Part shown: positions 5,900 to 57,078 of the stretch, piece after piece | How positions within the stretch are numbered: the first letter of the stretch is position 1 | Layout of the letters: every line of letters starts with the position of its first letter | DNA from: Simplicispira suum | Lineage (GTDB): Bacteria; Pseudomonadota; Gammaproteobacteria; Burkholderiales; Burkholderiaceae_C | Assembly (NCBI RefSeq): GCF_003008595.1 | Contig: NZ_CP027669.1 | Coordinates: forward strand, 2,728,001-2,792,000 | Length of the DNA stretch: 64,000 bases | Direction: 5' to 3' | Position numbers and translations under genes: made by a program | Notes under the pieces: model-generated | The model's database searches: none | Seen by the model: the letters and a program-made list of their open reading frames with translations, nothing else | What the model was told of the DNA's origin: nothing

Positions 5900-5955
5900 A
5901 GTGTAGCTTTCTACGCTTGATGGATAAGCGCTAAAGACCTATTTCTATCAACTTT
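5900..5955 (+). repeat. Palindromic repeat copy 1 (intergenic, divergent promoters)
   Basis: Contains GTAGCTTTCTACGCTT, then ATAAGCGCTAAAGACC and an AT-rich tail with CTATCAA. It matches the family order (tGATAGCT, AGCGCTT, spacer, AAGCGCTAGAG, AT tail) with a degenerate left arm. It sits between the OsmC gene and the hypothetical gene at 6056. Confidence 0.65.
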
Positions 5956-6055
5956 TCGGGCCAGAGCGGTTGCCAGACCGCATTGCAGACCGCTTGCCAG
6001 TGCCGCAGGGTTCCGCGCCGTATGCTTGGTGGCCTGACCCTATGGATGTGCCGCG

Positions 6056-6535
6056 ATGATTGACGAAACCCCCGACGCCTGCGTGCAAGACGCCCGATTG
6101 TGGAGCGATGGCCGCTGGACTGCACGCGTGCAGAAAAACGAAGACGACGATGGCTGGGCCGTGGCCATGACGCTGCAAGGCGAGGACGAGCCCGCTCTCG
6201 TCGGCCCCTGGACCATGGGACGCGACAAGAAAAATCCCAAGCCACTCGATGTGAACGCCTTCAACACCCTGGTCAAGACCGCCAGCGAGGTGCTGCGCCG
6301 CCACGAGCAGCAGCTGTACGCGCAGTTGAACAAGAATGTCACCGTCACGGTCGGTGGCGAGCGCGTGCGGGTCATGCTGGCGATCGTTCCCGACGAAGAG
6401 GGCGCGACTGCCACCCTGAGCGCGCAGGATGCCCTGGGCGAAGAACTGGCGAGGGTGCCCGCCCCGCCCACCTTCAGGCTGACGGTGGACAGCGCCCTGC
6501 AGTGGGCACAAGGCGGGTTTGAGCGCCCGCGCTGA
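6056..6535 (+). CDS. Conserved-looking hypothetical protein, 159 aa
   Basis: 159 residues, acidic and soluble, with no signal peptide or membrane segment. The start MIDETPDACVQDARLWSDGRWTA follows GCCGCG and has only a weak ribosome site. The sequence has regular alternation of hydrophobic and charged residues and good third-position GC, which supports coding. I do not recognise the family. It ends 5 bases before the DUF2945 gene on the opposite strand. Confidence 0.7.
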   Translation: MIDETPDACVQDARLWSDGRWTARVQKNEDDDGWAVAMTLQGEDEPALVGPWTMGRDKKNPKPLDVNAFNTLVKTASEVLRRHEQQLYAQLNKNVTVTVGGERVRVMLAIVPDEEGATATLSAQDALGEELARVPAPPTFRLTVDSALQWAQGGFERPR

Positions 6536-6540
6536 CGGCT

Positions 6541-6753
6541 CTACGAGATCTTTGTCAACGCTGCACCCTTGTGTGCGGCGATGTGGTCGGTTTTGTCGCT
6601 CTTGATCTCGTATTGCGGCTCGTCTTCACTGGCGCGGTGCGTATGGCCTTTGTAGCCAAAGTCCTTTTTGTGCACTTTGGTGATGTGGCCGCTGACGTGC
6701 CCGGCTTCAGAATTCCAGCGCACGTGGTCACCCACTTTGAAGGTCGAAGGCAT
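6541..6753 (-). CDS. DUF2945 / HVA1-type small Tudor-like protein
   Basis: 70 residues. The pattern FKVGDHVRWNSEAGHVSGHITKVHKKDF...DEPQYEIKSDKTDHIAAHKGAALTKI matches the short DUF2945 family, whose members form a small SH3/Tudor-like beta-barrel. The role is unknown; several relatives are linked to stress or plasmid functions. A ribosome site GGAGAACG lies immediately upstream of the ATG at 6753. Confidence 0.85.
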   Translation of the reverse strand: MPSTFKVGDHVRWNSEAGHVSGHITKVHKKDFGYKGHTHRASEDEPQYEIKSDKTDHIAAHKGAALTKIS

Positions 6754-6904
6754 GTCGTTCTCCTGAGTGGCGTACAGCAGGCCATGCTAGGCAGCCAGGT
6801 CCGCACACGCAACGGATCGAGCGCTTGACGCGGTCTTGTCTGGCAGGTGCGAGTGCCACCGGGTGGTAGCTTGAGCCGTTCACCACCCAACAACGAGGAT
6901 TCCC

Positions 6905-7111
6905 ATGCCCCTGCCAGCTCAGGCCCCTGTGCCCGAACCGCTGCCTCCCCTGCAAACGCCGCCCAGTGAGCAACCGCCGCATCCGGACTGGCTGCCGGAG
7001 CCTCCGGTGGTGGACCCGCCGGCTCCGCCGGGTGAGAGGCCGATCACCGATCCCACTCCGCCAGGGGAGGGCGAACCGCCTGTGGTCGATCCACCGCCTT
7101 CCTACCACTGA
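6905..7111 (+). CDS. Very small proline-rich protein
   Basis: 68 residues, more than a third of them proline, with the phrase PPVVDPP occurring twice. The ATG at 6905 is preceded by AACGAGGATTCCC, giving a usable ribosome site at about 8 bases. There is no signal peptide, so it would be cytoplasmic. I know no function. Coding is supported by the repeated peptide and the ribosome site, but the low complexity limits confidence. Confidence 0.5.
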   Translation: MPLPAQAPVPEPLPPLQTPPSEQPPHPDWLPEPPVVDPPAPPGERPITDPTPPGEGEPPVVDPPPSYH

Positions 7112-7378
7112 GTTCGCGTGACGAAGCCCGCAACCGGGACCTCAACCTGGAAACGGCCGTTGACCGCTTTGCATCTCTTGCCAGCCACATGAAACCCGTC
7201 GGCGCTGGCTTTGACGATCTTCACCACATGGGTGAGAACGCCATGCACCCGCCAGCACCACGCTCAGGGCGCCATGCGGACTTGCTGCCCCGTGCGGGTA
7301 GGCGCCGACCGGGTCGTCGGGCCTTGCCTGGCACTCTGGCCGCGGCAACGGCAGGTGCATCCAACTCACGACACCCGG
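7112..7378. other. 267-base gap without a confident gene
   Basis: No convincing full gene is present. On the minus strand one frame ending at a TAG near 7110 reads GVLTHVVKIVKASADG...GRFQVEVPVAGFVTRTQW and looks protein-like for about 45 codons. It is closed upstream by a TGA near 7265 and has no good start, so it could be a tiny gene with a GTG start or the tail of a decayed one. Confidence 0.3.
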
Positions 7379-8638
7379 TCAAATCACCCCGTCAGCGCGC
7401 AATCGTTCGATGCGCGCGGTGTCCAGTCCCAACTGCGCAAGCACTTCCTCGGTGTGCTGACCCAGGGCGGGCGGTGCGTTGCGCAGCATCGGCGGGTTGT
7501 TGGAGAGCCGCAGCGGGCTGGCGACACCGGTGATGGTGGCCACTCCGTCGGGCGCGTCGTCCTCGGGCCAGCGGGGCAGCACAACGGCCAAGCCGCGCGC
7601 CTGCACCTGGGCGTCGCCAAAGGCTTGGGCAATGGTGTTGATGGGACCGCAGGGAACGGCCTTTTTCTCCAGCAGCGCAACCCAGTCGGCGGTGCTGCGC
7701 GTGCGCGTCACCACTTCCATGGCCGGGATCAGTTCGCCGCGGTGGCGCACGCGCAAGGTGTTGCTGGCAAAGCGGGGGTCTTTGGCCCATTCCGGGCGGC
7801 CAGCGGCCTCACAGAAGCGCGCGAACTGGCCATCGTTGCCGATGGCCAGCAGCATCGAACCATCCAGCGTAGGGAAGTCCTGGTAGGGCGCAAGGCTGGG
7901 GTGGCTGTTGCCCTGGCGGGCGGGGGCTACACCCGTTGCCAGGAAGCCGGCAGCCTGGTTGGCCAGAATGGCCATTCCCACGTCAAGCAAGGCCATGTCG
8001 ATGTGCTGACCGCGCCCGGTGCTGTGGCGCACGTTGAGAGCGGCCAGGATGGCGGTGCTGGCGTAGACGCCGGTGAACAGATCGGTCAGCGCCACGCCCA
8101 CGCGCAGCGGACCGCCGCCAGCTTCGCCGTCGGGCCGGCCGGTGATGCTCATCATTCCCGTCATGGCCTGGATCATCAGGTCGTAGCCGGCGCGTTCGGC
8201 GTACGGCCCGTCCTGGCCAAAGCCGGTGACCGAGCAGTAGATCAGGCGGGGGTTCAGCGCCATCAGGCTGGCGTGGTCCAGGCCGTACTGCGCCAGACCG
8301 CCGACCTTGAAGTTCTCGACCAGCACGTCGGCCTGTAGCGCCATCTGGCGGATCAGTTCCTGGCCCTCAGGTGTTGCGATGTCGAGCGTGACCGAGCGCT
8401 TGTTGCGGTTGCAGGCGGTGTAGTAGCTGGCCTGGTCGGTGTCGTGGCCGGCGGCGTCCTTCAGAAAGGGAGGGCCCCAGTGGCGCGTGTCGTCGCCGAC
8501 GCCAGGACGCTCGATCTTGACCACATCGGCGCCCAGGTCCGCCAGTATTTGCGTGCACCAGGGGGCTGCCAGCACGCGCGAGAGATCAAGCACGCGGATG
8601 CCGTCCAGGGCGCCTGCTGAGGGTGGAGAAAGGCTCAT
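7379..8638 (-). CDS. Class III (CaiB/BaiF) CoA-transferase, probably for glutarate
   Basis: 419 residues. It shows family III hallmarks: the GIRVLDLSRVLAAPWCTQILADLGADVVKIE-type N-terminus, NRNKRSVTLD, and the catalytic Asp153 in AGYDLMIQA, which would form the acyl-aspartyl intermediate. It lies 69 bases after glutaryl-CoA dehydrogenase on the same strand, a pairing seen in glutarate/lysine catabolism where the transferase activates glutarate with succinyl-CoA; the substrate is inferred from this context. The start at 8638 (MSLSPPS) is chosen because the open frame upstream to 8692 is only translated palindromic repeat. Confidence 0.9.
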   Translation of the reverse strand: MSLSPPSAGALDGIRVLDLSRVLAAPWCTQILADLGADVVKIERPGVGDDTRHWGPPFLKDAAGHDTDQASYYTACNRNKRSVTLDIATPEGQELIRQMALQADVLVENFKVGGLAQYGLDHASLMALNPRLIYCSVTGFGQDGPYAERAGYDLMIQAMTGMMSITGRPDGEAGGGPLRVGVALTDLFTGVYASTAILAALNVRHSTGRGQHIDMALLDVGMAILANQAAGFLATGVAPARQGNSHPSLAPYQDFPTLDGSMLLAIGNDGQFARFCEAAGRPEWAKDPRFASNTLRVRHRGELIPAMEVVTRTRSTADWVALLEKKAVPCGPINTIAQAFGDAQVQARGLAVVLPRWPEDDAPDGVATITGVASPLRLSNNPPMLRNAPPALGQHTEEVLAQLGLDTARIERLRADGVI

Positions 8639-8644
8639 AATGCT

Positions 8645-8709
8645 TTCAAAAAGATAGCTGAAAGCGCTTATGGAATAAGCGCTAGAGGCCAATTTGGCTT
8701 AAAATTTTC
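8645..8709 (+). repeat. Palindromic repeat copy 2 (between gcdH and CoA-transferase)
   Basis: AAGATAGCTGAAAGCGCTTATGG, then ATAAGCGCTAGAGGCC and the tail AATTTGGCTTAAAATTTTC. This is the cleanest intergenic copy. It fills the gcdH-transferase gap and would form a hairpin in the message directly before the transferase start. Confidence 0.85.
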
Positions 8710-9904
8710 AGTTGGAGAACGCCGCAATCCCGGTCTGTGCGCGCCCCAGGATCAGCGCATGCACGTCGTGCGTGCCCTCGTAGGTGTTCACCACCTCCAG
8801 GTTCACCAGGTGCCGCGCCACGCCGAACTCATCGCTGATGCCGTTGCCGCCCATCATGTCGCGCGCCATGCGGGCAATGTCGAGTGCCTTGCCGCAGCTG
8901 TTGCGCTTGATGATCGAAGTGGCTTCGACAGCAGCCGTGCCTTCGTCCTTCATGCGCCCCAGGCGCAGACACCCTTGCAGGCCCAGCGCAATCTCGGTCT
9001 GCATGTCGGCCAGCTTTTTCTGGATCAGCTGGTTGGCAGCCAGCGGACGGCCAAATTGCTTGCGGTCCAGCGTGTACTGGCGCGAGGTATGCCAGCAGAA
9101 CTCGGCTGCGCCCAAGGCCCCCCAGGCGATGCCGTAACGCGCGCTGTTCAAGCAGGTGAACGGGCCCTTCAAGCCCTGCACTTCGGGGAAGGCGTTTTCC
9201 TCGGGCACGAACACCTTGTCCATCACGACCTCGCCGGTGACGCTGGCGCGCAGGCCCACCTTGCCGTGGATGGCGGGCGCCGACAGGCCCTTCATGCCCT
9301 TGTCGAGAATGAAACCGCGAATCGGGCCGACGGCGCCGGCCTCGCTCACTTCCTTGGCCCAGACCACAAACACGTCGGCGACGGGGCTGTTGGTGATCCA
9401 CATCTTGCTGCCCGAAAGCTCATAGCCGCCCGCCACCTTTTTCGCGCGGCTGGCCATGCTGCCGGGGTCCGAGCCGTGGTCGGGTTCGGTCAGGCCAAAG
9501 CAGCCGATCCATTCGCCGCTGGCCAGTTTGGGCAGGTATTTCTGGCGCTGTGCCTCGGTGCCGAATTCAAAAATCGGCACCATTACCAATGAACTCTGCA
9601 CGCTGGCCATGGAGCGGTAGCCCGAATCGACGCGCTCGACTTCGCGGGCAATCAGGCCGTAGGCCACGTAATTGAGCCCAGGGCCGCCGTACTGCTCGGG
9701 GATGGTGGGGCCGAGCAGACCCACTTCGCCCATTTCGCGAAAGATGCTGGTGTCCATGCGCTCGTGGCGGAAGGCTTCGAGCACGCGGGGCGCCAGTTTG
9801 TCCTGGCAGTAGGCGGCAGCGGCATCTCGCACCATGCGCTCGTCGTCGCTCAGCTGCTGGTCGAGCAAAAAGGGGTCGTCCCAATGAAAAGTGGCGTGGG
9901 CCAT
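8708..9904 (-). CDS. gcdH: Glutaryl-CoA dehydrogenase
   Basis: 398 residues, the normal length. It is an FAD acyl-CoA dehydrogenase that oxidises and decarboxylates glutaryl-CoA to crotonyl-CoA. Family segments: [17 protein letters not shown] near 135, KMWITNSP near 165, [15 protein letters not shown] near 250, GNGISDEF near 345 and the catalytic glutamate in [17 protein letters not shown] near 370. The start at 9904 ([12 protein letters not shown]) has GGAGA 6 bases upstream. Divergent from a LysR regulator and followed by a CoA-transferase, as in known glutarate clusters. Confidence 0.95.
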
Positions 9905-10004: not shown

Positions 10005-10029
10005 CGAGAATATGGAACGCAGTTATGCG

Positions 10030-11926: not shown

Positions 11927-12829
11927 ATGAATTACCCCACGATCGAGGACACTGTTGGGCGCACGCCGCTGGTGGCCCTGCAACGCATTGCTGCCAAGGA
12001 CAACGCCGAGCGCGGCAATGTGGTTTTGGCCAAGCTCGAAGGCAATAACCCGGCGGGTTCGGTGAAAGACCGTCCCGCGCTGTCCATGATCCGGCGCGCC
12101 GAGGAGCGGGGCGAGATCCGGCCCGGCGACACCTTGATTGAGGCCACTTCAGGAAATACCGGCATTGCGCTGGCGATGGCGGCGGCCATTCGTGGTTACC
12201 GCATGGTGCTGGTCATGCCCGAAGATGGTTCGGCCGAGCGCGCCCAGGTCATGAAGGCGTTCGGCGCCGAGCTGATTCTCACGCCCAAGAGCGGGGGCAT
12301 GGAATACGCGCGCGACTTGGCGGTCAGCATGCAAAAGCAGGGCAAGGGGCGCGTGCTGGACCAGTTTGGCAACGCCGACAACCCCCGTGTCCACTATGAG
12401 ACCACTGGCCCCGAGCTGTGGGAGCAGACCGAGGGGCGCATTACCCACTTCGTTAGCGCCATGGGGACCACCGGCACCATCACTGGCGTTTCGCGTTTTC
12501 TCAAGGAAAAGAACCCGAAGATTCTGGTGATCGGCGCACAGCCGCAAGAGGGTTCGCGCATTCCCGGCATCCGCAAATGGCCCGAGGCCTACATGCCCGC
12601 CATTTATGACGCCAGGGCGATCGACGAGCTGGTACTGGTCAGCCAGGACGACGCCGAAGACATGTGCCGGCGCATGGCGCGCGAAGAGGGCATTTTTGCC
12701 GGCATTTCGGCGGCGGGTGCTTGCTGGGTGGCGCAGCAGATTGCGCAGCGCGAGCACGATGCGACGATCGCCTTTGTGGTCTGCGATCGCGGTGATCGTT
12801 ACCTCTCCACGGGTGTTTTTCCCGCCTGA
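11927..12829 (+). CDS. cysM: Cysteine synthase B (O-acetylserine sulfhydrylase, thiosulfate type)
   Basis: 300 residues. A PLP enzyme that makes cysteine, or S-sulfocysteine from thiosulfate, from O-acetylserine. Lys47 in NPAGSVKDRPA is the PLP lysine; EATSGNTGIALAM near 70 binds substrate and GTTGTITGVSRFLK near 178 binds the phosphate. The length and the motif GSRIPGIRKWP favour CysM over CysK. The ATG at 11927 (MNYPTIEDTVG) is the family start; the frame upstream runs through the tRNA and is not coding. A palindromic repeat follows the stop. Confidence 0.93.
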   Translation: MNYPTIEDTVGRTPLVALQRIAAKDNAERGNVVLAKLEGNNPAGSVKDRPALSMIRRAEERGEIRPGDTLIEATSGNTGIALAMAAAIRGYRMVLVMPEDGSAERAQVMKAFGAELILTPKSGGMEYARDLAVSMQKQGKGRVLDQFGNADNPRVHYETTGPELWEQTEGRITHFVSAMGTTGTITGVSRFLKEKNPKILVIGAQPQEGSRIPGIRKWPEAYMPAIYDARAIDELVLVSQDDAEDMCRRMAREEGIFAGISAAGACWVAQQIAQREHDATIAFVVCDRGDRYLSTGVFPA

Positions 12830-12888
12830 AATTTTGGATGAATAGGCCTCTAGCGCTTACCCAGTAAGCGCAAGCAGCTATCAAAAAG
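12830..12888 (-). repeat. Palindromic repeat copy 3 (cysM-Nudix gap)
   Basis: Read on the minus strand: TTGATAGCTGCTTGCGCTTAC, then GTAAGCGCTAGAGGCCTATT and the tail. It begins immediately after the cysM stop and ends at the ribosome site of the Nudix gene, so the hairpin may affect read-through or translation of the downstream gene. Confidence 0.85.
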
Positions 12889-12894
12889 GAAGTG

Positions 12895-13470
12895 ATGCAG
12901 TACGAAACGCGTTTTTGCAGCCACTGCGCCACGCCGCTGGCAATGATCGTTCAGGCCGAGGACAGCGGCGACGTGGCGCGACTGCGTTGCCCGGCCTGCG
13001 GCTGGACGCACTGGAACAACCCCACGCCAGTCCTTGCTGCCGTGGTGGAGATCGACGGCAAGGTGCTGCTGGCGCGCAATGCGGCATGGCCTGGCAAGAT
13101 GTTTGCACTGATCACCGGCTTCATGGAAGCGGGCGAGTCACCCCAGGCCGGCATTGCGCGCGAGCTCAAGGAGGAAACCAACCTTGACGTTCGTGCGAGC
13201 ACGCTGATTGGTGCCTACGAATTTCTGCGCATGAACCAGATCATCATTGCCTACCATGTGGTGGCCACGGGGCAGGTGCGGTTGTCGCCCGAACTGGTGG
13301 ACTACCGGCTGTACGATTTGAAAGATCTCAAATGCTGGCCGGCGGGTACGGGCTACGCGCTGGCCGACTGGCTGCGCACGCGGGGACACGAACCGGTATT
13401 TTTCACTGACGAAGAAAATGCAGAGCGACGCCGTGGGCTCGATCTGCCGCCAAAGGACGCAAGGCCATGA
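12895..13470 (+). CDS. Nudix hydrolase with zinc-ribbon (NADH-pyrophosphatase-like)
   Basis: 191 residues. An N-terminal zinc ribbon has CSHC at about 8-11 and CPAC at about 32-35. The Nudix box follows, GFMEAGESPQAGIARELKEETNL, matching the GX5EX7REUXEEXGU pattern except for the last glycine position. Such proteins hydrolyse nucleotide diphosphates; the ribbon recalls NudC, but the protein is shorter and the substrate cannot be given. The ATG at 12895 has GGAAG just upstream. The stop overlaps the tusA start by 4 bases (ATGA), so the two are translationally coupled. Confidence 0.88.
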   Translation: MQYETRFCSHCATPLAMIVQAEDSGDVARLRCPACGWTHWNNPTPVLAAVVEIDGKVLLARNAAWPGKMFALITGFMEAGESPQAGIARELKEETNLDVRASTLIGAYEFLRMNQIIIAYHVVATGQVRLSPELVDYRLYDLKDLKCWPAGTGYALADWLRTRGHEPVFFTDEENAERRRGLDLPPKDARP

Positions 13471-23672: not shown

Positions 23673-24674
23673 ATGACCGGAAGGCAAACGAACACCATGC
23701 AGCGCGAGAGCTTCAGCGTCACGGCGCGCTTCGCCCAGGCCCTGGTCGATGCCATTGCACGCCAGGGCGGGCAAGTGCCCGAGGCTTTGCGGCTGGGTAG
23801 GACGCAGGAGGGGCGGGTGGACATGGCGCGCCAGGAGGCGCTTTGGGCGCTGTTCGTCGAGGCCTGTCCGGACGATCCGCTGGCCGCGCTGCGCCTGGGC
23901 ACGGATCTGCAGGCCGGGCACCTGGACATCGTGGGCATGCTGCTGCTCAGCTGCGACACCCTGGGCGACGGCCTGGAGGTGCTGACCGAATACGCGCCCA
24001 TCATTGGCGACAACGCCCATTTCGAGGTGGCTGTGCTGGCAGACCCAGTGCAATTGCGTTATGTGCCAGGCTATGTGCTGTACCAGCAGCAGCGGGTGGA
24101 GGCGACGCTCGGCTGCGTGGTGAGCCTGGCGCGCTGGATGACGAGTGGCCGCTTTCGGGCGCGCGAGGTGCTGCTGGCCCACGCTGCGCGCACCGACGCT
24201 GCGGCCTACGAGGCGTTGCTGGGCTGCCCGGTGCGTTTTGGCCAGCCGGTGAACGCCGTTTGCATGGACGCCTGCGAACTGAACCACACCTTGGTGCAGG
24301 CGGGAAGCAGCCTGCAACAACACCTGCGCAGCCTGGCCGACGGTGTGCTCGCGTCGCTTGCGCAGGACGGAACTTCGGCGCGGGTCCAGCAATGGGTACG
24401 CGCACACCCCCGCTGGGGCAAGGAGCGCATTGCCGAGCAACTGGGGATGAGCGGGCGCCACCTCAACCGCAAGCTGGCTTTGGAGGGCATTTCCTTCAAG
24501 GGTCTGCGCGAGGCCCTGCTGCACGACATGGCGCTGCAGGCCCTCAGGGACGGCCAGAAGATTGCTGCGGCCAGCGAGGCCCTGGGTTTTTGCGACGAGA
24601 ACGCGTTTTCACGGGCCTTTCGCCGCTGGACCGGGCAGTCGCCAGCGCAGTATCAAAAAACAGAAAGAAAATAG
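23673..24674 (+). CDS. AraC-family regulator (OruR/ArgR-like)
   Basis: 333 residues. The N-terminal effector domain of the 'arabinose-binding' type spans about 10-200 (LDIVGMLLLSCDTLGDGLEVLTEYAPII). The C-terminal AraC helix-turn-helix pair spans about 230-330 (ERIAEQLGMSGRHLNRKLALEGISFKGLR, then IAAASEALGFCDENAFSRAFRRWTGQSPAQY). It is divergent from the BASS operon and most likely controls it. The start at 23673 (MTGRQTN) or 23697 (MQRESFSV) is possible; the second is closer to the first conserved residues. Confidence 0.88.
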   Translation: MTGRQTNTMQRESFSVTARFAQALVDAIARQGGQVPEALRLGRTQEGRVDMARQEALWALFVEACPDDPLAALRLGTDLQAGHLDIVGMLLLSCDTLGDGLEVLTEYAPIIGDNAHFEVAVLADPVQLRYVPGYVLYQQQRVEATLGCVVSLARWMTSGRFRAREVLLAHAARTDAAAYEALLGCPVRFGQPVNAVCMDACELNHTLVQAGSSLQQHLRSLADGVLASLAQDGTSARVQQWVRAHPRWGKERIAEQLGMSGRHLNRKLALEGISFKGLREALLHDMALQALRDGQKIAAASEALGFCDENAFSRAFRRWTGQSPAQYQKTERK

Positions 24675-24718
24675 CTTCTAGCGCTGATGCAGCAAGCGCT
24701 TGCAGCTCTCATTTCAAG
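24668..24718 (+). repeat. Palindromic repeat copy 4 (convergent gap)
   Basis: ATAGCTTCTAGCGCTGATG, then AGCAAGCGCTTGCAGCTC and the tail ATTTCAAG. A diverged copy between the AraC gene and the convergent yceI gene, where a hairpin could serve both as a terminator. Confidence 0.7.
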
Positions 24719-24741
24719 AGCATATCGCCTGGCCCGCAGGC

Positions 24742-26843: not shown

Positions 26844-27932
26844 TCATCTGCCCGCCGCCGCTGTGGCGAGCGCGGAAAGGGTTTCGTCAAGGCGCGGGGT
26901 CTCAACGGTATTGAGGTGCGCCTGGATCTGCTGCATCGCCGTGGCGGCGGTTTGCGTGCGCCGCGCAGCCGGGTCAAAGTATTTGTTGAGGGCCGCGCTG
27001 GCGGTGAGCAGATCGGAGCGCGCGGCATCGAGCTGGCGCGCCAGAATGCCCAGGCGCGCGTTGAGCAGCATGAGCTTCAGGTTTTCGCGCAGGAAGAAGG
27101 CCTGGTCCGGGGAAATCAGGATGGCCTCGGGCTGGTCGATGCGGCGCACGCGCACCAGGCCGCGCATTTCGTCCTTCACCGCGTCCCAGCCGCGCTGCAG
27201 CGGCGCCATCCAGGCCGGCAGATCGGCTGTTTCGCCCGCTGCGGCCCCAGAGGCTGCTGTGGGCCGCGCACTGGCCGCCAGACGCCGCGTGGCGGCCGCC
27301 TGGGCAACGGCGTTCTTGAGCGGCAGTTCGTCCACCTGGCGCAGCAGTTCGTCGAGCCGCGCCAGCAGGCCGGCGGTGTCCGTGACGCTGGCGCTGGACA
27401 GGCGTTCGAGGTCCAGCGCCAGGGCGCGCTGCACCGGAGCCAGGCGCGGCTGGGCGGCGCGTTCGATGCGCTGCTGCGCGCTCTTGATGGAGGCCACCAG
27501 CGGCTGCATGCTGCCGGTGAGCTGGGCCTGTTGCTGCGCCAGGCGCACGTTGGCCTCGATGTCCACCACCAGGTTCTCATCGCGCGAACGCGAGAGGCTT
27601 TGCATCAATTCTTCGAGCTGGCTGCGCTGCAGGGCGACTTCGCTCAGGCGCGTCTCCTGCACCGCCAGACGCGCGGCCGATTCTTGTGCCAGTTCGCTCG
27701 CCTGGCGTGCCAGGGCCCGCGCTTCAATGGCCTGGCGTCCGGCATCCTGGCTTTGCTGCGCCAGCGCTTGCTGGATGTTGCCGAGCTTTTGCCACAGCAG
27801 CATGCTGCCCGTGAGCCCGATGACGGCCAGCACGGCCACCAGCGCCAGGGCCCAGCCAAGCAGGCGGGTGCTGCTCGCCGGGGCAGCGGCAGTGCTGGTG
27901 GCTGCGCCAGTGGAATCCACAGAAGTGCTCAT
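26844..27932 (-). CDS. hemX: HemX-like uroporphyrinogen-III C-methyltransferase homologue
   Basis: 362 residues. One transmembrane helix near 25-48 (WALALVAVLAVIGLTGSMLLW) is followed by a long coiled coil (about 50-130, rich in Q, A, E and R) and a C-terminal domain with YRIDQPEAILISPDQAFFLRENLKLMLLNARLGI-type sequence (here VRRIDQ...). HemX proteins of this type are bitopic and are encoded with hemCD; the methyltransferase label is historical and no methyltransferase fold is visible. The start overlaps the hemD stop by 4 bases. Confidence 0.88.
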   Translation of the reverse strand: MSTSVDSTGAATSTAAAPASSTRLLGWALALVAVLAVIGLTGSMLLWQKLGNIQQALAQQSQDAGRQAIEARALARQASELAQESAARLAVQETRLSEVALQRSQLEELMQSLSRSRDENLVVDIEANVRLAQQQAQLTGSMQPLVASIKSAQQRIERAAQPRLAPVQRALALDLERLSSASVTDTAGLLARLDELLRQVDELPLKNAVAQAAATRRLAASARPTAASGAAAGETADLPAWMAPLQRGWDAVKDEMRGLVRVRRIDQPEAILISPDQAFFLRENLKLMLLNARLGILARQLDAARSDLLTASAALNKYFDPAARRTQTAATAMQQIQAHLNTVETPRLDETLSALATAAAGR

Positions 27933-28732
27933 GGCGCAGATTCTATAGACGCTGCCACGTCCGCCAGAGCGGGCCGGCACTCTGAAACCTGCCCGAAGCC
28001 TGCAGCCAACGCCGCTTGTGCAATTCGCGGGTGCGTGGCCAGAGCGCGTGCGCCGGCCCAGGACTGGTCTGGCAGCGCGGCGCACAGGTGGCCCAGCGCC
28101 TGCGCGCTGCTCAGCACCCACAGCGTGCCGTCGGTGGCGGCGGCCTGCGCCAGCGCCCGCTGCGCTGCGCTCCAGGGCGGCGCGGCGCGGGTGTAGGCGA
28201 CGACGAAATCCACCGACCCGCCTGCGGCGCGAATCTGGCTGCTCAGCCAGTCGCGGCCGCTGCCCGTTTGCCCGCTGCCGGCTTCGCCACCGCGCACGAT
28301 CAGCACGCGGGTGCCCGTCCGCACGCTGGCGCCCACGCTGCGCCACAGCGATTCGGAGTCGAACTGGCCGGCGTCGGCGGCGGGCTGGTCAATGCGGCGC
28401 ACGGGAACGCCCAGCGCCTGCAGCATGGCAGCGGTGCCTGGGCCGGGTGCCCATACTCTTGTTTTGATAGCTGGTAGCGCTTGCTGGATAAGCGCTAGAG
28501 CCTCATTTGATTCAAAAAAATGGCGCGCGGCACTGCCGCTCACCACCATCAGCGCGTCGTAGTCGCTCAAACCCTTCCGGGCCTGTGCGAGCGCTTGCGG
28601 GTCGGGCGTGTCGGCAATGCAGATGAGCGGCAGGGCGGAGGCGGCAATGCCGCGCGCCTGCAGCGCCTGCACCCACTGCGAGGCCTCGGGTTCGGGGCGC
28701 GTGATGAGGGCGCGGGGCGGGGCGGCCGACAT
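27929..28732 (-). CDS. hemD: Uroporphyrinogen-III synthase
   Basis: 267 residues. It cyclises hydroxymethylbilane to uroporphyrinogen III. Family features: ALITRPEPEASQWVQALQARG at 8-28, LMVVSGSAARHFF near 62 and LWVLSSAQALGHL near 208. Residues about 72-92 (bases 28459-28519) are encoded by an in-frame palindromic repeat, giving FFESNEALALIQQALPAIKT between two conserved strands; see findings. The start at 28732 lies 14 bases after the hemC stop and the stop overlaps hemX. Confidence 0.93.
   Translation of the reverse strand: MSAAPPRALITRPEPEASQWVQALQARGIAASALPLICIADTPDPQALAQARKGLSDYDALMVVSGSAARHFFESNEALALIQQALPAIKTRVWAPGPGTAAMLQALGVPVRRIDQPAADAGQFDSESLWRSVGASVRTGTRVLIVRGGEAGSGQTGSGRDWLSSQIRAAGGSVDFVVAYTRAAPPWSAAQRALAQAAATDGTLWVLSSAQALGHLCAALPDQSWAGARALATHPRIAQAALAAGFGQVSECRPALADVAASIESAP
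28459..28519 (+). repeat. Palindromic repeat copy 5, in frame inside hemD
   Basis: TTTTGATAGCTGGTAGCGCT, then ATAAGCGCTAGAGCCTC and the tail ATTTGATTCAAA. Every family landmark is present, yet the reading frame of hemD on the minus strand is kept open through it. The encoded peptide has the same frame as in copy 8. Confidence 0.9.
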
Positions 28733-32557: not shown

Positions 32558-32564
32558 TTGCTAT

Positions 32565-32628
32565 TTAAGTGATAGCTACTAACGCTTATCAGATAAGCGT
32601 CAGAGCGTATTTTTTAATAAAATTTCAG
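32565..32628 (+). repeat. Palindromic repeat copy 6, doubling as terminator
   Basis: AGTGATAGCTACTAACGCTTATC, then GATAAGCGTCAGAGCGT and an AT-rich tail. The hairpin ACGCTTATC-A-GATAAGCGT (32582-32600) is exact and is followed by TATTTTTT, so for ppc it would act as an intrinsic terminator. It lies between convergent genes. Confidence 0.85.
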
Positions 32629-36619: not shown

Positions 36620-36642
36620 CGTTATACGCCGAATTTGCTCTT

Positions 36643-36704
36643 ATTTTGATAGCTGAAAGCGCTTGCTGAATAAGCGCCAGAGCCAAAAACTAATTGAAAT
36701 TTTC
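36643..36704 (+). repeat. Palindromic repeat copy 7 (convergent gap before flhC end)
   Basis: ATTTTGATAGCTGAAAGCGCT, then AATAAGCGCCAGAGCC and the tail AATTGAAATTTTCAG. It reaches the stop codon of flhC and lies between convergent genes, where the hairpin can act as a terminator. Confidence 0.85.
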
Positions 36705-50489: not shown

Positions 50490-53400
50490 TCAGGGGTTCT
50501 CAGAGGCGCTGCGCGACAGATTCAGCGCCAGCAGGCGGCGCAGGATTTCGTCGTCCGGCATTTCCGGCGTGTAGTCGTCCCAACCATAGGCCGCCGCCAC
50601 GGCCGCGTCGAGCTGCCCATGCGCCGCAGCCAGCCAGGCGGGCCGCTGGTTGTAGAGCTTGGTGAGGGTGCGCTGGGCCAGCTCCTTTTCAAACCCTGCC
50701 TTGGCCACGATGCGGTCGGGGTAGGGCGACGCGTCCATGCCCAGCGGCACCACTTCGGGCACGCGGGTTGTCCATTCGGGCGGGTTCAGCCAGGCTTCGC
50801 GCAGCGTGTTCAGGCGGTGTGCGGCCTGGGCAATGGCGGTGGCGTGCTGTCGCAATACTATGGTTTCGATAGCTGGCTGCGCTACTCCCATAAGCGCTAG
50901 AGGCTGATTTTCTTCAAAATTCTGAGTTTTGGGCGTGCTAGGTGCACCGGGGGCTTCGGGCGTGGCGCCGGGTAGCCCGGCTGGAATCAGCGCGCCGCCT
51001 GCGACTGCTTCTGTGCGCTGGTGGGCGGTGTCGAGCGGGGTGAGGCCGGCGGGGAAGGGGAAGGTTTCGAAGCAGGTGGTGGGGGTGTAGCGGGCGTCAT
51101 TGCCGACGCCTAGCCACGTCCCCATGTGCATGGACCAGAGCTCATGGAGACGGCTGTGGAGGATGCCAAAAGTGGTGTCGTCGGCGCGGGCGATGGCGAT
51201 CACGGTTTGATGAGGCCATGTCTGGGTGTGTTGCCACACCCAGTTGCGGTGCTTTGAGACTTGAGAGGTAGCGATATAGCGGGAAATCAAGCGAGTGGAT
51301 TCGCGCCAATCTTTTCCCGAGCGTCCATGTAGCCACCAGCGCAGACGCCTCGACTCATCTCTATTTGTTTCGCGGACAGGTTTCACATGGGTCTCAACAT
51401 GCGAAAACGGTTGTTCATATAAAGATGAGTCTGCTTGCGAAAGGGCGTTGAAGTCCACAACCCACACGCCTCTCGATCGGCTGGTGATGTCCTTTCCATT
51501 GGTCAAAGGGCGGACGACTTCGCTATTCGATTTTCCGTGTGGGTTGGGTATCGCCAGCCATTGCCTGGCGACAGATCCTTCCACATCAAAGTTGCCCACT
51601 AGAACCGGGCCTTGAAAGCTGGTGCGCCCGTTTTCCGGCAGGCGCTGCGCATCCGTGAGGTCTCCCGTTTGCTCGGCGTTGAAAGTCAGACCGGCCTGGA
51701 TGCTGCTGACTTTTGCACTGTCTAGCTGCGCTGCTTGTTCTGACTTTCCGAATGCGAGCAACGACACGCGAACCGCCGCGCCGTTGTTCACCCACGCTTC
51801 ATCGCTCCAAGCCTCGAAAATCCGCGTCTCTGTGCAGATGGCGTCCAGAACCTTGCGGTTGGCGCCTCCCCGAATCGAGTTGGTCGCCACCAGGCCGGCG
51901 CGCTGCAACTCCCCGGCGGCGATCTGCGCGCGGGCCTTGTCGAACCAGTAGCACACCAAGTCGGCGCCTCCGGGTACGCGGCCTGCGTAGGTGGCGCGCA
52001 GGGCAGTGGTGGCGGCGTCGCCCAGCTCGGCGCGCATCTTCTTGTCGCCCAGAAACGGTGGGTTGCCAATGACCACGTCCGCGCGCGGCCAGGAGGCTTC
52101 GTGCGGTTTGGCGGTGGTGGTGCCCTGTGGTCCGGGTTTGGGGTCGGAGCCCGAGTTTCGCTGCGCGAAATCGGGATCCGACCCCAAAGCCTGCGCCGCG
52201 CTGGTGGCGCTCAAAGCCTGCGCCGCGCTGGTGGCGCTCAAAGCCTGCGCCGCGCTGGTGGCGCCCAAAGCCTGCGCCGCGCTGGTGGTGCTCAAAGCCT
52301 GCGCGGTGCCGTGCGGGAAATTTGGGTCAGACCCTGCCGGCTCGGCGGGCCAGGCCAGCAGGGCGTCGCGGCATTCGATGTGTTCCAGAGCGTCGAGCAC
52401 GGGGTTCATCTTGAATTCGTAGCCGTGCGCCAGCCGCCATTGCAGCTCGCCAATCCAGATGGTGACACGGGCGAGTTCGGCGGCGTATTCGTTCAGTTCG
52501 ATGCCCAGCACGTTGTGCGGGCCGGTGACGAGGTCGGCCTCGCGGTCCAGGCCCAGCTCGGCGGCTTGCAGGTGGCTGCGGTGCTCGATGTCTTTCAGGC
52601 ACTTGAGGGCCAGGAAGAGGAAGTTGCCGCTGCCGCAGGCCGGGTCGAGCGCGCGGTAGTGTTTCAGGCGGTCGAGCCAGGTGATGAAGTGCTGGTGCGC
52701 GGCGCGGTAGTGTTTGTCGCCTTTTTTGGTTATTTTGGCCGCCAGCGCTTGTATTTGCTGCGCAACCAGCTCCCATTCTTGTAGCAAAGGCCTGCGGATA
52801 ACCGGGTCGATCAGGCGCTCGATGGTGGCCGGGTCGGTGTAGTGCGCGCCGAGCTGGCTGCGTTTGGCCGGGTCAAGCCCGCGCTCGAACAGGGTGCCGA
52901 AGATGGAGACGTCGATGGCGCTCCAGTCGAGTTCGGCGGCGCGGCGCAGTTCGGCCAGGTCGGGCGCGCTGAGCTGGGGCACGGCGATGGTCTGAAACAG
53001 CCCGCCGTTGAACCACGGGATGTCGTCCACACCGTACAGGCCACCGCTTTGCATGGCGGCAAACAGCTGCGTGAGGCCTTGGCTCAGGCGCTCGGGCGTG
53101 GCAGTTTTGTTGTTCAGCAGCCGCTCGAACATGCGGCTGGGCAGCAGGCCCACGTCTTCGGCAAAAAAGCAGAACAGGCATTGCGTGAGGAAGTGGGCGA
53201 CTTCGTTGGCGCGCTGCTGCACGGCGGGCGCGGCAGCGCCGGGTGCGCCGCCGCGCTGGCGCAGGCCTTCGGCCAAGGCGGCAAAACTGCGCGCGGCGGC
53301 TTCGGTGATGTCGCGGCTGGTCTGGCGCGGTTTGAAGCTTTTGGGGTTCAGCCAGATGCGGCGCAGCAGGGCCAGGTTTTCGGGCTGGTCCATCTCGGCA

Positions 53401-53795
53401 ATGCGTACTTCGTGCGTTTCGCTCGGGTGGCCGGTGAACTGCGTGTGGATGCGAATGGTGAGCCGGTCGGACACCACCAAAATGGGCGGGTTCGCCAGGG
53501 CCAGGCTGTAGGTGAGCAGTTGCTTGAGGGCTGCGTCCAGGTTTTTGCCGGGCGCCTTGTTCTCCCACGCGAACACGCCGCGCATGAAGACGTCGGCATA
53601 GCCGGTCTTGCCGCCGATGACCGCGCTTTTTTCTTCAAAACGGTAGCCCTCGGCACTGCCGGGCTTGGGGACATCGAGCAGCTCGCACAGGTCGAGAAAG
53701 TGGCTTTGCGCGCCTTGCTCTTCGTTGAGCGCGTAGGCGGGGCCGGGGACGCCGCCGGGCGTTCCCCATTTGGCGATGAAGTCTTGAGGGGTCAT
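50490..53795 (-). CDS. MmeI-like fused restriction-modification enzyme (type IIL)
   Basis: 1101 residues, longer than MmeI (about 920). The N-terminal nuclease motif is Asp68-x9-Glu78-Asn-Lys80, the same D-x9-ExK spacing as MmeI. Next come a helical spacer (about 130-340) and an N6-adenine methyltransferase with motif I LDPACGSGNF (near 395) and the catalytic NPPF (near 575). A target-recognition region (about 660-890) of lower GC follows, then a C-terminal helical domain. One polypeptide would therefore both methylate and cut. Two in-frame insertions are present: a hairpin plus minisatellite at residues about 486-552 and palindromic repeat copy 8 at about 958-978. Cotranscription with the toxin-antitoxin pair upstream is likely. 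Confidence 0.85.
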   Translation of the reverse strand: MTPQDFIAKWGTPGGVPGPAYALNEEQGAQSHFLDLCELLDVPKPGSAEGYRFEEKSAVIGGKTGYADVFMRGVFAWENKAPGKNLDAALKQLLTYSLALANPPILVVSDRLTIRIHTQFTGHPSETHEVRIAEMDQPENLALLRRIWLNPKSFKPRQTSRDITEAAARSFAALAEGLRQRGGAPGAAAPAVQQRANEVAHFLTQCLFCFFAEDVGLLPSRMFERLLNNKTATPERLSQGLTQLFAAMQSGGLYGVDDIPWFNGGLFQTIAVPQLSAPDLAELRRAAELDWSAIDVSIFGTLFERGLDPAKRSQLGAHYTDPATIERLIDPVIRRPLLQEWELVAQQIQALAAKITKKGDKHYRAAHQHFITWLDRLKHYRALDPACGSGNFLFLALKCLKDIEHRSHLQAAELGLDREADLVTGPHNVLGIELNEYAAELARVTIWIGELQWRLAHGYEFKMNPVLDALEHIECRDALLAWPAEPAGSDPNFPHGTAQALSTTSAAQALGATSAAQALSATSAAQALSATSAAQALGSDPDFAQRNSGSDPKPGPQGTTTAKPHEASWPRADVVIGNPPFLGDKKMRAELGDAATTALRATYAGRVPGGADLVCYWFDKARAQIAAGELQRAGLVATNSIRGGANRKVLDAICTETRIFEAWSDEAWVNNGAAVRVSLLAFGKSEQAAQLDSAKVSSIQAGLTFNAEQTGDLTDAQRLPENGRTSFQGPVLVGNFDVEGSVARQWLAIPNPHGKSNSEVVRPLTNGKDITSRSRGVWVVDFNALSQADSSLYEQPFSHVETHVKPVRETNRDESRRLRWWLHGRSGKDWRESTRLISRYIATSQVSKHRNWVWQHTQTWPHQTVIAIARADDTTFGILHSRLHELWSMHMGTWLGVGNDARYTPTTCFETFPFPAGLTPLDTAHQRTEAVAGGALIPAGLPGATPEAPGAPSTPKTQNFEENQPLALMGVAQPAIETIVLRQHATAIAQAAHRLNTLREAWLNPPEWTTRVPEVVPLGMDASPYPDRIVAKAGFEKELAQRTLTKLYNQRPAWLAAAHGQLDAAVAAAYGWDDYTPEMPDDEILRRLLALNLSRSASENP
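50861..50920 (+). repeat. Palindromic repeat copy 8, in frame inside restriction-modification gene
   Basis: TTTCGATAGCTGGCTGCGCT, then ATAAGCGCTAGAGGCTG and the tail ATTTTCTTCAAAATTC. On the minus strand it is translated as NFEENQPLALMGVAQPAIET, in the same frame and register as the hemD copy. Confidence 0.88.
52140..52185. repeat. 46-base hairpin inside restriction-modification gene
   Basis: Arms GGGGTCGGA/TCCGACCCC, CCCGA/TCGGG and TTTCG/CGAAA around a five-base loop CTGCG, with one mismatch and one bulge. A related GGGTCAGACCC lies at 52324-52334 on the far side of the minisatellite. Both encode GSDP peptides in the gene. Confidence 0.88.
52186..52311. repeat. 27-base minisatellite, about 4.6 copies, coding
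   Basis: The unit begins AAAGCCTGCGCCGCGCTGG and repeats at 52186, 52213, 52240, 52267 and partly at 52294, with only one to three changes. On the minus strand each unit encodes nine residues of the type AAQALSATS. Length is a multiple of three, so copy-number change would keep the frame. Confidence 0.95.
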
Positions 53796-53813
53796 GGCGG
53801 GGCAGGTTTTGAA

Positions 53814-54128
53814 TTAATAGCCGCGCAGCAGCATGTCGAGTGCGGTCTCTATTTCCAGCATCTGCGCTTTGGCGCTGTTGCAGCTTTGGCGCAACTCAGA
53901 CTGCAAGAAAACGGCAATGCCCAGAGGGTGCAGGTGCACTGTGTGGTGGCTCACCACAATGGCCGGGTTGAAGCGCGCGGTCATGCCCGGGAAGGCGCCG
54001 GGCCGGGCCAGCGGGACGCAGACGCGCTCGGCAAATTGGTAGAGCAGATCGCTCTGGATTTCCAGCACAAAGGGGAAGTCGGCCCGGTCGGGCTCTATGG
54101 GGTTGGGGTAGATGTCGAAGCGCGCCAC
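53814..54128 (-). CDS. CcdB-family toxin
   Basis: 104 residues. The start MARFDIYPNP and the segments FVLEIQSDLLYQFAERVCVPLARP and VVSHHTVHLHPLGIAVFLQSELRQ follow the CcdB SH3-like fold. In F-plasmid CcdB the last residues Trp99-Gly100-Ile101 contact and poison DNA gyrase. Here the corresponding tail reads LLRGY, with Arg in place of Trp, so gyrase poisoning is not assured. The gene starts directly after the stop of the antitoxin-like gene, with no gap. Confidence 0.85.
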   Translation of the reverse strand: MARFDIYPNPIEPDRADFPFVLEIQSDLLYQFAERVCVPLARPGAFPGMTARFNPAIVVSHHTVHLHPLGIAVFLQSELRQSCNSAKAQMLEIETALDMLLRGY

Positions 54129-54428
54129 TCATACCCCTTCGCTGCGCCAGCGGCGCACGCGCTGAGAGTAAGGCTCGCGCTCAGTCGCCCAGGCGTTGTA
54201 TTGGGCAATTTGCTCGGCGTGCTGCTCGGCCCATTGCGCGGTGTGCGCGGTGGGCACGGGCTTCGCGCCGTAGCGGGCGGGCTCCTCTTGCACCGATGGG
54301 GTGGCCGGCACCACCTTGACGGGGCGCATCACGATGCTGCCGTCCGCCAGAGTCTCGACTTGAAACAACTGCCCGGCGTACTTCTTGCCCAGCGATATCT
54401 GGCCGCTGGCGCCGACTTCCTTCAACAT
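54129..54428 (-). CDS. Putative antitoxin, AbrB-like N-terminus
   Basis: 99 residues. The N-terminal 45 residues (VGASGQISLGKKYAGQLFQVETLADGSIVMRPVKVVP) have the pattern of AbrB/MazE swapped-hairpin DNA-binding domains ('GQISLxKKY...DGSIxLRP'). The C-terminal half is polar and probably unfolded until toxin binds. It does not resemble CcdA (ribbon-helix-helix). The order antitoxin then toxin, with zero spacing, supports a toxin-antitoxin unit. AGGAGCC precedes the ATG at 54428. Confidence 0.7.
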   Translation of the reverse strand: MLKEVGASGQISLGKKYAGQLFQVETLADGSIVMRPVKVVPATPSVQEEPARYGAKPVPTAHTAQWAEQHAEQIAQYNAWATEREPYSQRVRRWRSEGV

Positions 54429-54480
54429 GGCATGGCTCCTGTTGCGCGTCATGCCATCATGCGGCATGAAAATTGGCGGG

Positions 54481-57078
54481 TCAAGTTCGCGGCAGCGCGC
54501 CCTTGAGCTGGTACAGCGCGTCAAGCGCCTCGCGCGGGCTGAGCTTGTCGGGGTCGAGGGCCGCCAAGGCCGCTTCGACGCGGCTGGGCGCGTTCATTTC
54601 GGGGGCTGGCGGCGGGGCAAACAGGTCCACCTGCAGCTTGCCTTCACCGGCGCGCGCCTCCAGGGCTTCGAGTGCGTGGCGCGCATGGTTGAGCACGGTG
54701 GCCGGCATGCCGGCCAGTTTCGCCACCTGAATGCCGTAGCTGCGGCTGGCCGGGCCGGGGGAGATCTCGTGCAGGAAGACGATGTCGCTGCCCGATTCGG
54801 CCGCGCTCACATGCATGTTGACGGCGTGGCGCGCCTTGGCGGGCAGTTCGGTCAGCTCGAAGTAGTGCGTGGCAAACAGCGTGAAGGCGCGGGTTTTGTC
54901 GTGCAGTTGCGTGGCAATGCTGCCGGCCAGCGCCAGGCCGTCGAAGGTGCTGGTGCCGCGGCCGATTTCGTCCATCAGCACCAGGCTGTGCGGCGTGGCG
55001 GCGTGCAGGATTTGTGCGGCCTCCAGCATCTCCAGCATGAAGGTGGACTGCGCGTTGGCCAAATCGTCCGCCGCGCCAATGCGCGTGTGGATGGCGTCGA
55101 TGGGCCCCAGCCGGCAACTGGCCGCCGGCACATGGCTGCCGATGCTGGCGAGCAGGACGATGAGCGCCACCTGGCGCATGTAGGTCGATTTGCCGCCCAT
55201 GTTGGGGCCGGTGATGACCTGCATGCGCGTGTTGGCGTTGAGGCGTGTGCTGTTGGCGATGAAGGCGCCGCTCGATGTTTCTGCCAGACGCGCTTCGACC
55301 ACCGGGTGGCGACCGGCGTCGATCTCGATACAGGGCTCGGCCACAAACTGCGGCGCGCACCAGTTCAGCGTGAGCGAGCGCTCGGCCAGGCAGCAGAGGA
55401 CATCGAGCGTGGCCAGCGCCTCGGCCAGGCGGGTCAGCTGCGGGATGTGGGGCTGGAGCTGGGCCAGCACCTGGTCGTAAAGCCACTTCTCGCGCGACAG
55501 GGCCCGCTCAGAGGCCGACAGCGCCTTGTCTTCAAACGCCTTGAGCTCGGGTGTGATGAAGCGCTCGGCGTTCTTCAGCGTCTGGCGGCGCCGGTAGTCC
55601 TCGGGCACCTTGGCGAGCTGGCTGCTCGTGACTTCAATATAAAAGCCGTGCACCTTGTTGAATTGCACGCGCAGGTTGGCGATGCCGCTCCTCTCGCGCT
55701 CGCGCGCTTCCAGGTCGAGCAGAAAGGCGTCGCAGTTGGTCTGGATGGCGCGCAGCTCGTCCAGCTCGGCGTCGAAGCCGCTGGCAATGACACCGCCATC
55801 GCGCACCAGCGCGGCCGGCTCGGGGGCGATGGCGCGCGCCAGCAGGGCGGTGCAATCGGCGGGCGGCGTGAGGGCAGCAAAAATATGAGTCAAATAGGGC
55901 TCTAGCGCTTGTCCTGATTGCGCTAGCAGCTCTGTTTTTTGTAGCGTCTGGCCGAGCGCCAGCAACTCGCGCGGGCGCACCTGGCCGAGTGCGATGCGGG
56001 CGGTGATGCGCTCCACATCGCAGACGCCCTTGAGCGCGGCGCGCAGGCGCGTCCAGTTGCCGCCCTCGCGCAGCGCAGTCGTGGCCGACAGGCGCGCGCG
56101 GGCCGGGGCGCGGTCGCGCTCGGGCTCCAAGAGCCAGCGCCGCAGCAGGCGGCTGCCCATGCCGGTCATGCAGGTGTCGAGCAGGGAGAACAGCGTCGGC
56201 GCGTCGTCGCCGCGCAGCGTCTTGACGAGTTCCAGGTTGCGCCGGGTGTTGGCGGGCAGGTCGATCAGCTCGCTGCCCCGCTGTACGCGCAGGCTGTGGA
56301 TGTGTGTGAGCGGCCGGCCCTGGGTGTGCTCGGCATAGTGCAGCAGCGCGGCCGCGGCGGCATGGGCCTCGTGCAGTTCGTGCGCGCCAAAGGCTTCAAG
56401 CGTGGCGACTTGCAGGTGCGCCAGCAGCGTGCGCTCGCCCAGTGCGGTGTCGAACTGCCAGTCCGGGCGCGGCGCCACGGGGCAGCCAAACGCGCCTTGC
56501 TGGCGCAGGGTTTTGAGGTGGTCTTCAAAGCGCTCGGTAACGCCGGCACTGTAGATCAGCTCGCTGGGCGCAATACGGGCCAGCCAGGCCCCCAGTTCGT
56601 CCTGCGCGCATTCGGCCAGCAGCACGCAGCCCTGCGTCACGCTCAGCCACGCCAGGCCGCAGCGCGCGCGCTTGCCGGCGTGCACCGCGAGCAAGGTGGA
56701 CTCCTGCTTGTCGGACAGCAATTCGGTGTCGGTCAGCGTGCCGGGCGTGACCACGCGCACCACCTTGCGCTCCACTGGCCCCTTGGCGGTGGCCACGTCG
56801 CCCACCTGCTCGGCAATGGCCACCGATTCGCCCATGCGGATCAGGCGTGCCAGGTAGTTCTCAAGTGCGTGAAACGGCACGCCCGCCATCACCACCGGCT
56901 GGCCGGCCGACTGGCCGCGCTGGGTCAGCGTGATGTCGAGCAGGCGGGCGGCCTTCTCGGCATCGGCGAAAAAGACCTCGTAGAAGTCGCCCATGCGGTA
57001 GAGCAGCAGCGTGTCGGGGTACCCGGCCTTGAGGGCGAGGTACTGCTGCATCATGGGGGTGTGGGGCGTGTCGGTCAT
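54481..57078 (-). CDS. mutS: DNA mismatch repair protein MutS
   Basis: 865 residues. It recognises mismatches and starts repair with MutL. Phe32-Tyr33-Glu34 in MGDFYEVFF is the mismatch-reading wedge; the Walker A site is [15 protein letters not shown] near 640; [19 protein letters not shown] is the Walker B/signature region near 720; the C-terminal [15 protein letters not shown] helps tetramerisation. Residues about 380-398 come from in-frame palindromic repeat copy 9. The ATG at 57078 fits the family start. Single gene, divergent from the GGDEF-EAL gene. Confidence 0.96.
55884..55940 (-). repeat. Palindromic repeat copy 9, in frame inside mutS
   Basis: Read on the minus strand: AACAGAGCTGCTAGCGCAATC, then ACAAGCGCTAGAGCCCTATT and the tail TGACTCATATTTT. 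It is in the opposite orientation relative to the gene compared with copies 5 and 8, and is translated as [18 protein letters not shown]. Confidence 0.82.

Follow-up and report, generated by a model that had tools for sequence, protein, structure and literature searches.

A short palindromic repeat that recurs every few kilobases along a bacterial chromosome, partly within genes, raises the question of whether it is a mobile element or a site that the cell itself uses. The question is posed by a stretch of 64,000 nucleotides of Simplicispira suum (contig NZ_CP027669.1, positions 2,728,001 to 2,792,000; the window in what follows), in which an earlier note had listed nine copies of one such repeat, likening their behavior to that of the Rickettsia palindromic elements and suggesting that they may be mobile. 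Our analysis leads us to regard this repeat, about 68 bp long, as probably a chromosome-wide DNA recognition site and not a mobile element. All nine copies were found at the places claimed for them and with the motif order that had been described; a weak tenth copy (28.1 bits, 52721-52787), outside the nine, lies in an MmeI-like gene that also holds one of them. Below, G000 is the window's own genome, with a chromosome of 3.92 Mb, and the other G codes are the genomes compared with it. Gene contexts come from our own codon-score predictor, which assigns 92% of 464 kb to coding sequence. The copies and their host genes (window positions, strand, score) are the following.

5889..5955, plus strand: copy 1, 37.4 bits, between two divergent genes, one OsmC-like and one unnamed.
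8640..8706, plus strand: copy 2, 59.6 bits, flanked by two minus-strand genes and lying at the 5' end of a coenzyme A (CoA)-transferase gene.
12829..12895, minus strand: copy 3, 51.6 bits, occupying the gap from the PALP gene stop codon to the NUDIX gene start.
24657..24723, minus strand: copy 4, 48.4 bits, between a gene for an AraC-type regulator and a convergent minus-strand gene.
27929..28732, minus strand: hemD (uroporphyrinogen-III synthase; Pfam HEM4; limits from gene prediction), host of copy 5.
28453..28519, plus strand: copy 5, 54.0 bits, antisense within hemD.
32558..32624, plus strand: copy 6, 41.6 bits, placed exactly between two stop codons, that of ppc and that of an AI-2E transporter gene.
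36635..36701, plus strand: copy 7, 46.9 bits, between the convergent flgO-like and flhC genes.
50490..53795, minus strand: MmeI-like restriction-modification gene (Pfam MmeI domains), host of copies 8 and 9.
50855..50921, plus strand: copy 8, 47.7 bits, antisense, close to the 3' end of the MmeI-like gene.
52721..52787, minus strand: copy 9, the weak copy, 28.1 bits, sense within the MmeI-like gene.
54481..57078, minus strand: mutS (Pfam MutS I-V), host of copy 10.
55881..55947, minus strand: copy 10, 45.5 bits, sense within mutS.

The contexts given in the earlier note largely stood. Three copies (24657, 32558 and 36635) do lie between convergent genes, and coding copies are present in hemD, mutS and the restriction-modification gene. 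The six contexts described as intergenic were recovered as well, with the qualification that the copy at 8640 overlaps the predicted 5' end of the CoA-transferase gene, the start codon of which is probably mis-assigned. The proportion of one third inside genes describes the window; over the 110 copies introduced below it falls to about a fifth (21/110).

An iterated profile identified 65 copies in 464 kb and, with more stretches added, 110 distinct copies in 784 kb, in keeping with the dense family (about one copy per 7 kb) that had been proposed. The profile scan of 424 kb used for the comparisons below gave 57 copies. The reversed-sequence control, run with a slightly different fourth-round profile, returned a single match with an E value of 3.1, and a 24-nt core pattern allowing up to three mismatches matched the genome 361 times on both strands, as against once for the reversed control pattern. 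The family is far beyond chance. At about 14 copies for every 100 kb, the chromosome of 3.92 Mb would, by extrapolation, carry roughly 550.

The repeat is sharp-edged. In a profile of 96 copies (those below 25 bits or near a stretch end excluded), information jumps at position 0, returns to background by about position 70 and is nearly flat over 60 nt of flank on each side. The core is a dyad, GCGCTT-N7-AAGCGC, which AGCT and GAGGC adjoin; the conserved blocks are CT (positions 4-5), ATAGCT (15-20), CGCTT (26-30), TAAGCGCT (37-44) and GAG.C (46-50), and, within each side, the A/T tracts (0-1, 10-12, 53-56 and 63-67) are separated by about one turn of the helix. Altogether the motif holds 72 bits over 67 positions, while some 14 bits would suffice to mark about 550 sites. 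Copies occur singly and have a mean guanine-plus-cytosine (GC) content of 41% (110 copies). These properties set it apart from the beta-proteobacterial repeat element (BRE). The BRE description does report occurrence in Betaproteobacteria including Comamonadaceae, with intergenic and some coding copies, as seen here, but puts the length at 75-91 bp, the mean GC in Bordetella at 69% and the copy number at no more than 29, with some copies in tandem clusters and a moderately conserved context (PMC3110155). A single motif of about 68 bp and 41% GC with 110 copies in 784 kb does not fit that family, and BRE was rejected.

If the repeat were mobile, related genomes should differ in the sites it occupies. 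The comparison set 424 kb of G000 against 460 kb from one contig of G007. On the G000 side, with 57 copies, 42 are shared and 2 absent, and the rest are unmapped (12) or non-syntenic (1). On the G007 side, with 72, 43 are shared and 5 absent, and the rest are again unmapped (20) or non-syntenic (4). Leaving aside the copies that are not comparable (13/57 and 24/72), 42 of 44 and 43 of 48 sites are shared, and none of the 42 shared copies changes orientation between the two genomes. Inspection by eye of the seven differing sites yielded no clean empty site and no target duplication: at two of them weak coding copies face equal-length stretches that differ by substitutions without gaps, two face visibly degenerate copies, one is ambiguous and two are intergenic and unalignable. 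Within the window, alignment shows the site of copy 2 to be occupied also in G018 and G007, and those of copies 3, 4 and 7 in G018, G017 and G007; copy 1 has no counterpart at the matching place of G018. The edges of the 96-copy profile, although A/T-rich, contain no inverted pair beyond the core dyad. Given the shared sites and the absence of empty sites among the seven and of terminal inverted repeats, a miniature inverted-repeat transposable element (MITE) or other element mobile at present was rejected.

The repeat was seen only on the chromosome as far as the other replicons were read. The other two contigs of G000 (140 and 97 kb; GC 59%, below the window's 65%) carry no copy in 220 of their 237 kb, where 31 would be expected at chromosomal density. 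Half of a 20-kb piece of the 140-kb contig (G000:C2, L316) is 95% identical to a conjugative plasmid of Alicycliphilus denitrificans BC. A blastn search with one copy as query, which diverged copies would escape, matched 2 of 72,556 plasmid records and none of 50,697 phage records. On the chromosome itself, core and accessory sequence differ in the direction expected of a site rare in acquired DNA, but not significantly (51 copies in 348 kb and 6 in 76 kb; P 0.17). The possible mobility raised in the earlier note thus found no support in the sites common to G007, in the search for empty sites and target-site duplications or on the other contigs.

Mobilization in trans was a further suggestion. 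Repetitive extragenic palindromic (REP) sequences and REPINs are short palindromic repeats near gene ends with a cognate REP-associated tyrosine transposase (RAYT), and the present repeat, palindromic and often near gene ends, resembles them. The genome contains one RAYT-like Y1 transposase gene (L029 1383-2280; G000:C1 near 2421692), downstream of what we take to be an IS110-like gene, and a Y1 match is present in 15 of the 17 repeat-bearing genomes searched. The gene is adjoined, however, not by the 68-bp repeat but by GGGGTCAGACCCC palindromes, two upstream and a half-form downstream. A palindrome of this type, full or half, is found at 26 of 31 Y1 loci of the family, whereas the 68-bp repeat is found at 6 and never on both sides. 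Moreover, no Y1 match turned up in G003 and G134, which carry the repeat, and of the 15 genomes without a copy in the same search 12 do have one. With no link to a cognate RAYT and with sites common across species, mobilization by a RAYT is ruled out on the 31 loci and 33 genomes, and we consider this explanation highly improbable.

What, then, keeps the copies in place? Their distribution supplies a first indication. The 110 copies fall in tandem-gene gaps (53), convergent gaps (30, for 89 such gaps), divergent gaps (5) and genes (21), with one at a stretch edge; per kilobase this is 4.0 for convergent, 1.3 for tandem and 0.32 for divergent gaps and 0.03 for coding sequence. For 71 of 88 intergenic copies the distance from an edge to a stop codon is no more than 15 nt, as compared with 57 (standard deviation 3) on random placement in the same gaps. 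One could envision from this an RNA-level element, namely a terminator, a 3' stabilizer of mRNA or a riboregulator, especially as a palindrome would form a hairpin when transcribed in either direction. Against this, neither orientation relative to genes is favored (10 sense and 11 antisense copies within genes, 29 and 24 in tandem gaps); sense copies are kept even in coding sequence. The AGCT and GAG.C blocks are strongly conserved although they lie outside the core stem. An Rfam 15 scan of the window returned a tRNA and two below-threshold matches, none of them on a copy. The toxic beta-proteobacterial small RNA family that we had expected did not match any copy in that scan.

The pattern of substitutions speaks to the same point. 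For 32 of the 42 ortholog pairs shared by G000 and G007 (ten were dropped because a copy scored below 25 bits), identity is seen in 903 of 991 cells (91%) of the motif columns and in 371 of 607 (61%) of the free columns, a contrast that is partly built in, as the two sets of columns were hand-picked after their values had been seen. For comparison, identity between the two genomes is 90, 94 and 67% at the three codon positions and 64% at fourfold sites. Detection bias is limited, since 42 of the 44 comparable sites were detected. Identity in free columns is about 0.3-0.5 between paralogs and about 0.6 between orthologs, which indicates vertical descent without homogenization, only the motif being held. 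Pairing leaves no comparable trace. Among 107 copies (three below 20 bits dropped), the number of copies that pair at each variable position of either stem departs from that expected after shuffling by no more than 2 standard deviations, so that covariation is absent; the invariant pairs give no information on this. In stem 2 of the orthologs, two of nine double changes keep a pair, and single changes lose 20 pairs and gain 28; stem 1 shows one double change, with the pair kept. The constraint falls on the sequence and not on hairpin pairing, and an RNA-level function appears improbable to us.

The copies within genes are particularly informative. The mutS copy is present at 20 of 23 loci of the genus, weakly in some, and all 20 carriers use the codons CTA for Leu, CAA for Gln and AAA for Lys at the site. 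The fraction of third-position A/T is 0.47 in the segment (16 scored codons) as against 0.12 elsewhere (671 codons) and 0.22 in the next best window. The three loci lacking the copy (G002, G008 and G005) have ordinary codons there and a protein of unchanged length, and alignment with seven MutS proteins of other families revealed no 20-residue gap, so that the copy is length-neutral. Selection thus appears, to judge from these codons, to hold the motif in place even within a gene, overriding codon choice in mutS. The hemD copy is found at 20 of 22 genus loci among the matches listed, and by eye the DNA of G002 and G005 lacks it; HemD of the non-carrier G002 is equally long, and that of G005 differs by small indels. 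Rickettsia palindromic elements are in-frame insertions that lengthen host proteins, including those of housekeeping genes. The present copies resemble them in being read in frame within such genes, but no peptide is added to MutS and the length of HemD is the same in G002, these being the two decisive genes; with its sites old and shared, the repeat does not, in this essential respect, behave like those elements, contrary to the suggestion in the earlier note. Among the best 120 of some 8000 homologues each of tlyA and kdtA, tlyA is length-variable and true non-carriers are not distinguishable; the closest named proteins among the matches listed come from metagenome-assembled genomes of Giesbergeria (84 and 81% identity). 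The antisense copies in hemD (28453-28519) and kdtA (L027 6502-6568) encode similar peptides, AL..QAL.AIK/N, one reading frame of the motif being reused in unrelated proteins. As a separate observation on a host gene, the methyltransferase part of the MmeI-like gene contains four to five in-frame 27-bp tandem repeats (52185-52319), possibly a length-variable linker.

A more serious contender is that the repeat is the fossil of a Rickettsia-palindromic-element- or MITE-like mobile element that spread in an ancestor of the family, is now immobile and was kept by chance or co-opted. Its sharp edges and fixed length of about 68 bp are what insertion would leave, convergent gaps with copies are some 50 nt longer than those without, a motif of this complexity is hard to build by point mutation, and intergenic sites differ in more distant species. 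Against it, the conservation of motif over free columns in orthologs speaks for constraint acting now, several free columns are close to random between paralogs (about 0.3), the copy in mutS does not lengthen the protein when other families are taken as reference, and the two weak coding copies that differ between G000 and G007 do so by substitution without gaps. We view persistence by chance or co-option as rather unlikely. Ancient insertion followed by co-option, above all for intergenic copies, is likewise rather unlikely as an account of the repeat, yet it is the main rival to a recognition site of any kind.

The distribution of the family among genomes also bears on the recognition-site reading. 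Of 150 genomes of the family, 29 have at least one core match with up to two mismatches and 17 have ten or more, whereas only 5 of 70 genomes of the order, the own genome apart, have one or two, which is the level of the reversed control; the association with Comamonadaceae put forward in the earlier note is supported. Within the genus, pattern matches (counted on both strands, so that a palindromic site may count twice, and in some cases in incomplete genomes) number 0 in G002, 0 in G008, 4 in G005, 51 in G010 and 102-377 in 22 of the other 23 genomes, G000 included. In a mutS tree, G002, G008 and G005 group together with support, nested among carriers that with them make up a larger supported group, and this nesting indicates that the family was lost there. 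In the same tree the zero-hit genus G057 pairs, with support, with G049, a genus with 159 hits. Across 29 other genera the score of the mutS site tracks genome copy number with a Spearman coefficient of 0.75, a correlation that carries kinship uncorrected. No other dispersed repeat family was seen in G002 among the rows listed of its over-represented k-mers. The top k-mers of its stretch L294-L313 look like two different CRISPR repeats, each in more than 30 copies.

Loss across whole genomes suggests a reader acting in trans. The sites are old and vertically inherited, their sequence is constrained even against codon choice, gene orientation is immaterial to them, no copy lies in what was read of the other contigs, and whole genomes have lost them; in combination these features point to a site that is read by such a protein. 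One could envision a putative sequence-specific DNA-binding factor that reads the motif of about 68 bp, with selection, or drive via that factor, holding the motif at sites of old and vertical inheritance, preferably just after stop codons and also within genes. In a lineage that lost the process, the copies would decay genome-wide.

As to what the factor might do, the analogy that we consider most likely, though tentatively, is with DNA uptake signaling, as exercised through the DNA uptake sequences (DUS) of Neisseriaceae and the uptake signal sequences (USS) of Pasteurellaceae. USS are described as elements without orientation bias, somewhat regularly spaced, inside and outside genes, with A/T-rich flanks and a consensus stronger than ordinary binding sites would account for, that arise by substitution and not by insertion, at about one per kilobase (PMC1626085). 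The present repeat is like DUS and USS in its hundreds of copies neutral to gene orientation, its preference for intergenic sites alongside many coding copies, its length-neutrality in mutS, hemD and the two weak coding sites, its anomalously strong consensus, and its old shared sites and rarity in acquired DNA; with USS it shares A/T-rich flanking motifs about one turn apart (PMC1626085, PMC2397512). We favor uptake because the 72 bits far exceed the 14 needed and an anomalously strong consensus has been described for uptake signals. It is tempting to speculate, still more guardedly, that Comamonadaceae and their kin possess a third, independently evolved genome-wide system of self-DNA recognition besides DUS and USS, with a 68-bp dyad signal that drive or selection would hold even against codon preference and that would be lost genome-wide together with its putative reader.

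Ranked next is a nucleoid-organizing or supercoil-handling site, bound by a gyrase-like or architectural protein. A footprint that is long, dyad-symmetric and marked by A/T tracts some 10 bp apart would suit such a protein, as would the confinement to the chromosome as far as read, the spacing of about 7 kb and the enrichment between convergent genes, where positive supercoils meet. However, 72 bits are far above the need of such sites, and gyrase is universal while the repeat family is patchy. An architectural role is unlikely in our estimation, but it is the main rival to uptake among the roles open to a recognition site.

Besides the hand-picked columns and the uncorrected kinship already mentioned, several points weigh against the explanation that we favor. 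The motif spans about 68 bp and occurs once per 7 kb, as against a core of 9-12 bp for DUS and USS and a density of about one per kilobase for known uptake signals (PMC1626085); on account of these differences in length and density we describe it as working like DUS and USS and not as a member. It is also dyad-symmetric, unlike those signals, and belongs to a different bacterial family. Candidate readers do not separate carriers from non-carriers, and no reader protein was found among them: ComEC is present in 41 of 42 genomes, DprA in 22 of 22 and H-NS in 21 of 22, carriers and non-carriers alike, the misses (G008 for ComEC, G011 for H-NS) being incomplete genomes. The median length is 82 for convergent gaps that hold a copy and 31 for the others, a difference that insertion predicts, with the caveat that only long gaps have room for a copy. 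There is a modest leading-strand excess (68/110 copies, counted from strands). Spacing is somewhat even (coefficient of variation 0.82 and 0.78 versus 0.98), but the test is weak (P 0.09 and 0.02) and concerns the same region in two species. Copy numbers in the family are graded (for instance 6, 8, 11, 20, 40, 50) and not strictly all-or-none, and G010 has 51; ongoing decay would give such a gradation, and so would partial use. Finally, the site after ppc is occupied in only 3 of 14 other genus members read (G017, G007, where it is interrupted, and G012, where it is displaced), which indicates turnover of intergenic copies further afield. The interruption in G007 (L127, about 8849-9010) is an insert of some 160 nt that is bounded by CTAG at either end and has nearly perfect terminal inverted repeats; it looks like a MITE inserted into the site.

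Our searches, limited to open-licence PMC papers, brought up no paper that describes the motif. Taken as a caution, the case shows that a palindromic repeat with coding copies need not be a mobile element. If the recognition-site reading is correct, many genera of one family carry tens to hundreds of selected recognition sites, and these would represent either a new uptake-specificity system or a new chromosome-organizing site. Through comparison of closely related genomes, the genome-wide losses between kin (G002, G005 and G008 as against G006 and G011; G057 as against G049) would make the putative reader of these sites directly findable.

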